This document shows positions 12,554 to 15,901 of a DNA stretch of 49,581 nucleotides, one piece after another. Every line of letters begins with the position of its first letter. Positions within the stretch are counted from its first letter, which is position 1. The DNA is taken from the NCBI GenBank assembly GCA_903901015.1, contig CAIUPH010000102.1, forward strand, positions 1-49,581, read 5' to 3'. Below the pieces are notes generated by a model. That model did no database searches and was not told where the DNA came from. It saw only the letters and a program-made list of their open reading frames with translations. Source of the DNA: Candidatus Bathyarchaeota archaeon. Its GTDB lineage: Archaea; Thermoproteota; Bathyarchaeia; Bathyarchaeales; Bathycorpusculaceae. Made by a program: the position numbers and the translations under genes.

Positions 12554-13574
<1,021 letters not shown>

Positions 13575-13578
13575 AATG

Positions 13579-15795
13579 CTAAGTTGATGTAAAACGGTCA
13601 AACGTTGTCAGCGTACTCATTGACCCGCAGCTGGGGCATTTGTGGAGGGTTCCGAACCAGTTTTTCTTGCAGTTGTCGCAGAAGCTGATTAGGCGGTTGT
13701 AGGTGAAGAACTCGATTGATTGGTTTTCCATTAGGCGCTCTGTCAGGTTCAGGAGGGCTTCGGGTTTGTATTCTGCGCCTTCAAGCTCGATGATACTCAG
13801 GTTGCCGCCCGCGTTCAGGGCTTTCCATCTCTGCGCGGTTTCAAGCATCTCCGTTTGGATGCTCAGGAGCTCGGCAGCTTTCACCTGGAACCGCTTAGCA
13901 GTCGAATAATACGGTTTATCTCTTGTACCCGAAAATTTCACTTTAGCCACACCGTACCGCTCGATGTCCAGCTGCGCCAGTCGCTCAGACGCTTCCGAAC
14001 TGCCGAGGATGACGGGGTAGAGGCGTTTGCCATATTTTCTGCCGATTTTCTGCCTGAAAGCCAGAAGGTTCGCGATTGTTTCCTCGGCGAATTTGCGGCT
14101 CTCCTCCGAGTTGACGCTTTTTTCGGTGAACGCTTCAATGGCTTCGCGTAAACCTGCGAGATTGATTATGCGTGAGCAGTTTTCGAGGCGGAAGTAGGTG
14201 TCGCCGTCGGCTTTCTGCAGCAGAAACGGCATGAAGTTTTTTCCAAATTGTTTGAGCGCGTTGCTCTTTATGCCCAAGGCGCGTGCGGCTAGTTCGAAGC
14301 GTTCGCGCATCAATTCGTAGAACTTGTTCTTGTCCTTCTCGCATTCGAGGGCGATTCTTGGCAGGTTAATCGTTACGCATCCCAGGCAGCCTGTGCGCAG
14401 GGTGTCGGTTTCCCAGTCGCCTGTTAAATCAGGGGCAAATTTTACTCCCGAAGAAGAAAATGCCTGATTTTCGTTTTCCTTCTTGGTCAAGTTGGCAAAG
14501 TAGGGAATACCGCTCTTCGCCGCCAGCTGATGCGCTTTGAGCAGGATTGCTTTTGCGTTTTCATCAATTAAGGCAACACTGTTGATTTTTATTACAAGTT
14601 TCGGGCTTAAGAGCGGTTTGCAGGCACTTTCTTCCGCAAAAATATCGACGACAAGCGAGGCTATAAGTTGGCTTTCTTTTGTGAAGTCGCCGTATTTGAC
14701 GTTTGCTTTGCCATGTGGACCAACGGCTTCTTTTTGCGCGGTTAACTGGGGAATTGAAAGTTCAAGCGCCAGGGTGGCTTCTGCGTGTTGGTTGAGGTTT
14801 TGGATGAACAGGCGCAGGTTTTCCTTGATTTTAGCTACTTCGTTGCCTCTTATGTAGGGTGCGAGGAACACGTTGAAGTAGTTGAAGGTTTGAGTGCGAT
14901 TGGTTTCTTTGCTGGTGTGCAAAATAACGTTGAACGCGATGGATAACGCCGATTTTAAGTCGCTTGGAGCATCCATGGCGACTTGGAGGGGGTTGTCGAG
15001 TTTTACGCCATGCTGGAAAAAATAGCGCAAATCATGGATTACTTCGTTGGGTTTGAGAATCCACGTGCCCAACCCGTCGATGTGGATGGCTCCTGAAAGA
15101 TGCGCATCCGCGATGTCCCGCGGGAAAATGTTGAGCAGCGTGTATTCACCCAAAACGGTTTGACCTGCCTTGCTGATTGTTGCGTTTGAATCCAAGGCAG
15201 AATCCTTCGACTCGATGAGCGCGGTTACCTCATGGATGGGCATGCCCACCCGCGTGAGTTTGTTACGGTACTCCTCGTAGCCCTTCTCAACAAGAATCCC
15301 GTTAACGACTTCCCTGATGAGCGACGTCGTGAGGTACTTGGTTTTGGATTTAATGAGGCGTTTTTCGGCTTCTTTCGCGGCTTTCTGCGCGAGTTCCGCT
15401 GGAACCTTCGCTTCTTTGATAAGGGAATTCGCGATTTTGTTAGCGTCAAATTCTTCAAGCGTTAGATGAGATGTGCGGACCACCATGCCCCGTGGCTTAA
15501 CTGCCTTCTTTTCCACGCGGTCAGCTACGTCGAGCACCATCTTGCCAAGGTCAGTTAGATAATACTTCTTTGCTTCCACATCTGCCTCAACCAAATCTGC
15601 TTTCAACAGGAATTTGAGGTGATAGGCGAATCTGCCTGCGTCGCGGCTGGGGTTCATTTTGAGCTGGTTCATGAGTTCGGTGTAAGAGAGGGCGCTTTTG
15701 TCGAAGAGCAGGTTTAGGATTTGCAGCCGCAGCGGTGAAGAAACTGCTTTTAGCACTTTGACGCCGCGTGCGCGTAGCGGAGGCTGATTAACCAT
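13579..15795 (-). CDS. HTH/ATP-cone/NrdD-like protein lacking the glycyl-radical site
   Basis: A 738-residue protein annotated by homology as anaerobic (class III) ribonucleotide reductase. Domains: ArsR-like winged helix (about 10-80: AVSSPLRLQILNLLFDKSAL), ATP-cone (about 95-190: VVRTSHLTLEEFDANKIANS), NrdD barrel (about 200-690; TGCLGCVTINLPRIALE near the finger loop), and a C-terminal zinc site (CDNCKKNW, HKCPSCGS). Active NrdD continues after the zinc site with an RxxGY glycyl-radical motif. Here the protein reads FDRFTST and stops: Arg is kept, serine replaces glycine, and nothing follows. It may be catalytically dead and act as a nucleotide-sensing regulator, or be complemented by another protein. 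Start 15795 is chosen over 15948 because GGGAGAAAAGAGC precedes it and the extension resembles spacer. Convergent with pyrB. Confidence 0.8.
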   Translation of the reverse strand: MVNQPPLRARGVKVLKAVSSPLRLQILNLLFDKSALSYTELMNQLKMNPSRDAGRFAYHLKFLLKADLVEADVEAKKYYLTDLGKMVLDVADRVEKKAVKPRGMVVRTSHLTLEEFDANKIANSLIKEAKVPAELAQKAAKEAEKRLIKSKTKYLTTSLIREVVNGILVEKGYEEYRNKLTRVGMPIHEVTALIESKDSALDSNATISKAGQTVLGEYTLLNIFPRDIADAHLSGAIHIDGLGTWILKPNEVIHDLRYFFQHGVKLDNPLQVAMDAPSDLKSALSIAFNVILHTSKETNRTQTFNYFNVFLAPYIRGNEVAKIKENLRLFIQNLNQHAEATLALELSIPQLTAQKEAVGPHGKANVKYGDFTKESQLIASLVVDIFAEESACKPLLSPKLVIKINSVALIDENAKAILLKAHQLAAKSGIPYFANLTKKENENQAFSSSGVKFAPDLTGDWETDTLRTGCLGCVTINLPRIALECEKDKNKFYELMRERFELAARALGIKSNALKQFGKNFMPFLLQKADGDTYFRLENCSRIINLAGLREAIEAFTEKSVNSEESRKFAEETIANLLAFRQKIGRKYGKRLYPVILGSSEASERLAQLDIERYGVAKVKFSGTRDKPYYSTAKRFQVKAAELLSIQTEMLETAQRWKALNAGGNLSIIELEGAEYKPEALLNLTERLMENQSIEFFTYNRLISFCDNCKKNWFGTLHKCPSCGSMSTLTTFDRFTST

Positions 15796-15901
15796 GCTCT
15801 TTTCTCCCTGAACTCCCCAAGTTGGTGGTGTTCTACCTATTATTCCACTGGAGAGTTTAAACTTAACTAAAAAAATGCCATCTGCCGATGTTGTTTGACG
15901 T

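Follow-up and report, generated by a model that had tools for sequence, protein, structure and literature searches.

The closest described counterpart of the locus analyzed here is NrdR, the transcriptional repressor of ribonucleotide reductase (RNR) genes, in which a zinc ribbon is joined to an ATP-cone; it senses nucleotides via the cone and is rare in archaea (PMC9110341). An ATP-cone is likewise found in NrdD, the class III RNR (PF13597, TIGR02487), together with a 10-stranded barrel and a C-terminal zinc ribbon, and in the NrdD of P. copri the presence of ATP versus dATP on the cone shifts both the oligomeric state and the order of the C-terminus (PMC11226230). Winged helices are typical of the ArsR/SmtB regulators (HTH_5, HTH_20, DUF7347). 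Finally, BirA, PutA, and NadR each combine an enzyme fold with a DNA-binding domain and sense a metabolite of their own pathway while retaining enzyme activity.

The gene considered here lies in a 49,581-nucleotide stretch of DNA from a Candidatus Bathyarchaeota archaeon (contig CAIUPH010000102.1; hereafter the window) and encodes an ArsR-like winged helix (HTH), an ATP-cone, and an NrdD barrel without catalytic residues, an architecture that we refer to as HTH-pseudo-NrdD. Like NrdR, it joins a DNA-binding domain to an ATP-cone, adjoins RNR genes of several classes, and is proposed to exert nucleotide-dependent control. Unlike NrdR, it is archaeal, its DNA-binding domain is an ArsR-like winged helix rather than a zinc ribbon, its cone belongs to a different sequence class, and it includes an entire, inactive RNR barrel that has a zinc ribbon of its own. 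The linkage to RNR operons that characterizes NrdR is met in some lineages but not in the genome of the window. NrdR also binds paired boxes close to RNR promoters in a nucleotide-dependent manner; here, the only counterpart to this consists of candidate promoter motifs. Homology with class III NrdD is clear and extends over cone, barrel, and zinc ribbon; however, the thiyl Cys/Gly pair, the reductant Cys, and the RxxGY motif are missing, an HTH stands in front, and the score lies below the TIGR02487 cut-off. The winged helix is shared with the ArsR/SmtB regulators, but here it heads a 738-aa protein that is a putative enzyme-derived sensor. In contrast to BirA, PutA, and NadR, the catalytic residues have been lost and the fold is that of an RNR. 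The open-access literature that we searched contained neither a description of the HTH-ATP-cone-NrdD architecture nor a paper on a general archaeal RNR regulator.

Results

The gene runs along the minus strand from its ATG at 15795 to the stop codon at 13579-13581 (15795..13579) and encodes 738 amino acids (P0001). Pfam matches place the winged helix (HTH_5/DUF7347) at residues 14-89 (15529..15756), the ATP-cone at residues 104-176 (15268..15486), and the NrdD barrel at residues 207-734 (13594..15177), all on the minus strand. The HTH_5 and cone matches exceed their curated cut-offs (28.8 bits versus 22 and 31.5 bits versus 25.8), as does the HTH_20 match of an ammonia-oxidizer homolog (32.5 bits versus 27), and the NRDD (PF13597) match of the window protein reaches 231 bits. 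The same protein scores only 258.9 against the NrdD equivalog TIGR02487, for which the cut-off is 326.35, and has no match to TIGR00244 (NrdR), the winged helix standing in place of the NrdR zinc ribbon. An AlphaFold2 model built with 22 homologs (m31f80a27d9f8; pLDDT 79.6, pTM 0.70) predicts the 10-stranded barrel, and a Foldseek search with this model returned the class III RNRs of S. thermophilus, T. maritima, P. copri, and phage T4 (E-values down to 4e-25; TM-scores by target ~0.6-0.74).

Although this fold is retained, the residues of radical chemistry are not. The zinc ribbon of the window protein is intact (C706-x2-C709 ... C720-x2-C723; 13627..13680, minus strand) and is followed by CPSCGSMSTLTTFDRFTST and the stop codon. 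When the protein is aligned with the genome's own active NrdD, the RVVGY of the latter meets RFTST, such that the radical glycine is replaced by serine (S737; 13585..13587, minus strand) and the tyrosine by threonine, and the C-terminal tail is absent. Likewise, the region of the thiyl-radical cysteine, MCCRL in active NrdD, reads SGVKF (V451; 14443..14445, minus strand), and the region of the reductant cysteine, GPYC or TRPFC in active enzymes, reads KPNEV.

These losses extend to the whole family, as seen in an alignment of 22 HTH-less NrdDs and 128 HTH-fused rows, some of the latter being near-duplicates. All 22 HTH-less NrdDs have three cysteines (the reductant and both finger-loop cysteines), and RxxGY is present in 21/21 resolved C-termini. 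The 128 HTH-fused homologs lack RxxGY and the reductant Cys throughout, and the thiyl Cys and the Gly never occur together in one protein; at the key positions, a Gly is found in ten of them and a Cys in eight others, and fourteen different residues occupy the thiyl position. The zinc cysteines, in contrast, are retained in at least 124 of the 128. In some relatives a degenerate C-terminal tail remains (RISAR, RSSAK, KVFGK), which suggests that the loss was stepwise. The HTH-fused protein is thus CATALYTICALLY dead, and this is a conserved trait of the family. We also considered a catalytic cysteine relocated to the conserved GCLGC motif (~469-473) and rejected it, because the second cysteine of this motif varies between family members (A, V, T, S, G, and other residues).

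An earlier note, made from sequence alone, had described an NrdD homolog with an ATP-cone, barrel, and zinc site but no glycyl-radical site, with an ArsR-like HTH in front. This description held in the Pfam matches and alignments, although the losses in the thiyl-radical and reductant-cysteine regions had been missed. That note had also asked whether the genome has a second, complete NrdD along with NrdG, and whether the missing glycine is conserved among HTH-fused homologs; both are the case. Homologs with the same domain order and a normal RxxGY end, which would have refuted it, were not found among the 128 rows.

Full-length orthologs, with 46-92% identity, are found in ~80 of the 91 genomes of the window's family (f1). 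At E<=1e-60, orthologs are present in 197/257 genomes at the class level and in 227 of 398 sampled genomes at the phylum level, spanning the Bathyarchaeia, other Thermoproteota, and amoA-bearing ammonia oxidizers; eight tested carrier genomes have AmoA, which identifies them as ammonia oxidizers. Recurrence on this scale is far more than chance would produce. The sampled ammonia oxidizers have no other NrdD, their sole NRDD match being the HTH-fused protein. In a tree of cone and NrdD columns (HTH columns left out; 80 HTH-fused and 22 active sequences), HTH-fused and active proteins lie on two sides of one branch with SH-aLRT support of 99. This was a quick tree in which long branches are present; the split fits an HTH fusion that arose only once.

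The gene is under strong purifying selection. Compared with the two closest orthologs, dN/dS is 0.034-0.041 for the whole gene and 0.008-0.042 for the HTH, which is the most conserved part within the genus (0.008-0.05); given these values, the gene is no pseudogene. The G[KR]FAYHL helix of the HTH is kept in most of ~50 sampled lineages, and the HTH is identical in three Nitrosopumilaceae-like genera. HTH and cone are better conserved than the barrel: across lineages the cone is 52-66% identical where the barrel is 22-43% identical, and between the window protein and those of the ammonia oxidizers the values are 54-57% and 22-24%. A few copies in metagenome-assembled genomes (MAGs) contain stops or a frameshift, each in a single genome. 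As a separate observation, one amoA-bearing genome (L109; G515:C1, ~1756573-1758018) has a broken HTH-pseudo-NrdD frame (stop or frameshift) beside an intact NrdJ.

Reading the gene context of ~90 loci, with NrdJ placed by PF02867, reveals a recurrent RNR neighbor. An active NrdD lies directly downstream of the HTH gene on the same strand at 17 loci in families f4, f6, f9, f21, f22, and f23, and in an eighteenth NrdD-linked locus (L102, family f7) the HTH end lies outside the contig. NrdJ, the B12-dependent class II enzyme, takes this place in 22/22 ammonia-oxidizer loci (f29, f61, f58) and also in families f71 and f18. The gaps between the HTH gene and the RNR gene are mostly 40-580 bp. Furthermore, the type of RNR can be exchanged in place: the slot that holds an archaeal-type NrdD in G156 is occupied by a bacterial-type NrdD in its sister G159. 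A genome has one or a few RNR genes among what we infer, from genome size, to be ~1,500-2,500 genes; adjacency in about ten families and with two RNR classes is thus not due to chance. No RNR gene was found beside the HTH gene in f1, f2, f3, f5, f10-f13, f15, f30, f34, f35, or f46, and a complete NrdD or NrdJ is present in nearly all tested carriers.

Several smaller features of these loci are worth recording. In the one f4 genome tested, Pfam identifies a glutaredoxin ORF between the HTH gene and NrdD, and other small glutaredoxin-like CxxC ORFs (CPRC and others) were seen by eye in this position in f4 and f9 (L197-L208); with one ORF confirmed, it is likely that these encode the NrdD reductant. 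Thiolase-like and DUF35-like zinc-ribbon ORFs recur upstream of the HTH gene in f30 and in ammonia oxidizers (L106, L107, L110, L177, and others; by eye). Three NrdD frames are unusually long (1580, 1104, and 1130 aa in G261:C17, G115:C9, and G263:C62, respectively), with long insertions, possibly inteins, that split the NRDD match.

In the window itself, the neighbor is pyrB (aspartate carbamoyltransferase, assigned by domain and profile matches; 12627..13574, plus strand), which is convergent and separated by only 4 bp from the HTH-pseudo-NrdD stop codon. Locus comparison shows that a convergent pyrB also lies 2.3-3.2 kb downstream of the HTH gene, with the RNR gene between them, in f4, f6, f9, and f23, and that the same arrangement holds in most f61 and f58 (ammonia-oxidizer) loci showing pyrB; in L184 it is on the same strand. 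Because pyrB is common to both forms, what the window contains is this shared locus, lacking an RNR gene. The RNR gene may have been lost in the window's lineage or inserted elsewhere. Directly upstream of the HTH gene, the minus-strand segment 15902-17889 encodes an agmatine deiminase and an N-carbamoylputrescine amidase, an arginine-to-putrescine route.

The genome of the window has a complete bacterial-type nrdR-nrdD-nrdG operon away from the HTH gene (L003 7710-10975; G000:C110), whose NrdD (L003 8156-10282) is the genome's own active enzyme with MCCRL and RVVGY. Within f1, TIGR00244 exceeds its cut-off in 16/16 sampled genomes, and nrdR is present in 31 of 32 genomes of genus g1. The nrdR promoter in this genus (L147-L176) contains a conserved GCGCTAAnTGTAGTGT followed ~32 bp later by ACACTAY, which we take to resemble paired NrdR boxes. 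Outside f1, NrdR and HTH-pseudo-NrdD rarely occur in the same genome: NrdR has no match in 42 of 43 sampled carriers, the exception being G185, which has a second operon.

Motifs upstream of the genes were also compared. Within f1 and the genus, GTTAAGTTTAAAC is conserved upstream of the HTH-pseudo-NrdD gene (15855..15867, minus strand). This element is BRE/TATA-like and may overlap an operator; we do not claim it as one, because STTTAAAC is generally enriched across the window (18 observed, 7.3 expected) and the element sits at the BRE/TATA position. It was not seen upstream of nrdR-nrdD-nrdG. In Nitrosopumilaceae-like genomes, a near-palindrome, ATGAAGTTCATAG, lies between the HTH gene and NrdJ, upstream of the latter, and in the genomes having it matches with one mismatch occur only at the NrdJ locus; it is absent or altered in other ammonia oxidizers and in the f61 and f58 lineages. 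In f4, f6, and f9, [GA]TACAAAATTTTATAC is found upstream of the NrdD transcription unit (194 versus 125-131 in shuffled controls) and the HTH gene is preceded by CTACAATTTTTTAAAC (171 versus 115-123). The candidate motifs of linked lineages overlap or adjoin core promoters and differ from lineage to lineage, and none of the candidates examined is common to the phylum. We regard these promoter-proximal motifs as no more than leads.

Discussion

The most likely explanation of these observations is that a pseudo-RNR has become a transcription factor that senses (d)NTPs and controls RNR genes, an archaeal counterpart of NrdR; DNA binding, operator, ligand, and repression are all inferred. The N-terminal winged helix would bind the promoters of RNR operons as well as its own promoter. 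By analogy with NrdR and P. copri NrdD, the ATP-cone, perhaps together with the specificity site of the dimeric barrel, would sense ATP/dATP or other dNTPs, and nucleotide-dependent packing of the cone or a change in oligomeric state would set DNA binding. Repression is the simplest sign, in that transcription of RNR genes would fall when dNTPs are plentiful. The VRTS-type cone, with the signature VRTS...E.F..KI, is common to the HTH-fused protein and the active archaeal partner NrdDs, and hence both may see the same ligands. Counting against a (d)NTP-sensing factor, the HTH-fused cone lacks the KRDG-type start of the genome's own NrdD (KRDSKLEPFD) and of NrdR (KKDG), and nucleotide binding remains an inference.

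The idea of a dNTP-sensing repressor had been raised in the earlier note and is supported here, with the addition of an unforeseen linkage to two RNR classes in genomes that mostly lack NrdR; DNA binding, the nucleotide, and the choice between repression and activation are nonetheless inferred. Its expectation of a shared DNA motif upstream of RNR genes was borne out only in part, by suggestive promoter-proximal motifs.

It is worth considering other explanations. The protein might be an accessory or inhibitory subunit of an active RNR, with the dead barrel in mixed dimers with NrdD and the HTH serving as a protein-contact or localization module. In its favor, the gene adjoins that of an active NrdD in six to seven families of the Bathyarchaeia, the barrel still has its fold, and dimerization is a property of class III RNRs. 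However, linkage to NrdJ is equally tight in ammonia oxidizers without any NrdD, where a mixed NrdD dimer is impossible, and few parts of the protein are as conserved as the HTH, which is identical in the three Nitrosopumilaceae-like genera; we consider this explanation unlikely. Similarly doubtful is a nucleotide-responsive transcription factor of a wider regulon (pyrimidine synthesis, replication, and its own gene), for which RNR linkage would be inherited synteny. In its favor, convergent pyrB is conserved even without an adjacent RNR gene, and the HTH gene persists in f1 under strong constraint without RNR linkage. Against it, simple inheritance does not explain how archaeal NrdD, bacterial-type NrdD, and NrdJ came to occupy the same downstream slot, and a convergent pyrB shares no promoter with the HTH gene.

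Two further possibilities carry much less weight. A still-active reductase of an unusual type, with its radical supplied in trans or relocated, could be invoked on the grounds that barrel and zinc site are kept and that a Gly or a Cys survives at the key positions in ten and eight homologs, respectively. Yet these never occur in one protein, the reductant Cys is missing from every HTH-fused homolog, the thiyl position tolerates fourteen residues, and nearly all tested carriers have a complete NrdD or NrdJ, making this very improbable. An error in sequencing or assembly, or a pseudogene in decay, has nothing to recommend it beyond the missing motif and the single-genome stops or frameshift in a few MAG copies. 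The same kind of C-terminus is found in dozens of independent genomes, and we reject truncation or error on the basis of the orthologs across genomes, dN/dS of ~0.04, and the 128-row residue survey; this explanation is all but excluded.

The regulator reading is thus preferred, although the absence of an RNR neighbor in f1 and in the other unlinked families counts against it. In f1, where a separate nrdR-nrdD-nrdG operon bears NrdR-box-like sites, the present targets of the HTH protein are therefore not known. This operon also raises the question of how NrdR and the native HTH regulator share control. With these reservations, we lean by a modest margin toward a bolder reading: that a catalytic subunit of RNR gave rise, on a single occasion, to a transcription factor sensing (d)NTPs, which became the main regulator of RNR transcription, whatever the RNR class, across much of the Thermoproteota, including all sampled ammonia oxidizers.

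There are consequences for annotation as well. A PF13597 match would label aerobic ammonia oxidizers as having an anaerobic RNR, and counts of archaeal NrdD include dead HTH-fused copies. More broadly, HTH-pseudo-NrdD offers a candidate for an archaeal RNR regulator that is specific, found in many lineages, and open to experimental test; here, an enzyme of a pathway would have been turned into that pathway's own gene switch. It would play for many Thermoproteota the role that NrdR plays for bacteria, and the protein probably matches the production of DNA precursors to need in archaea.
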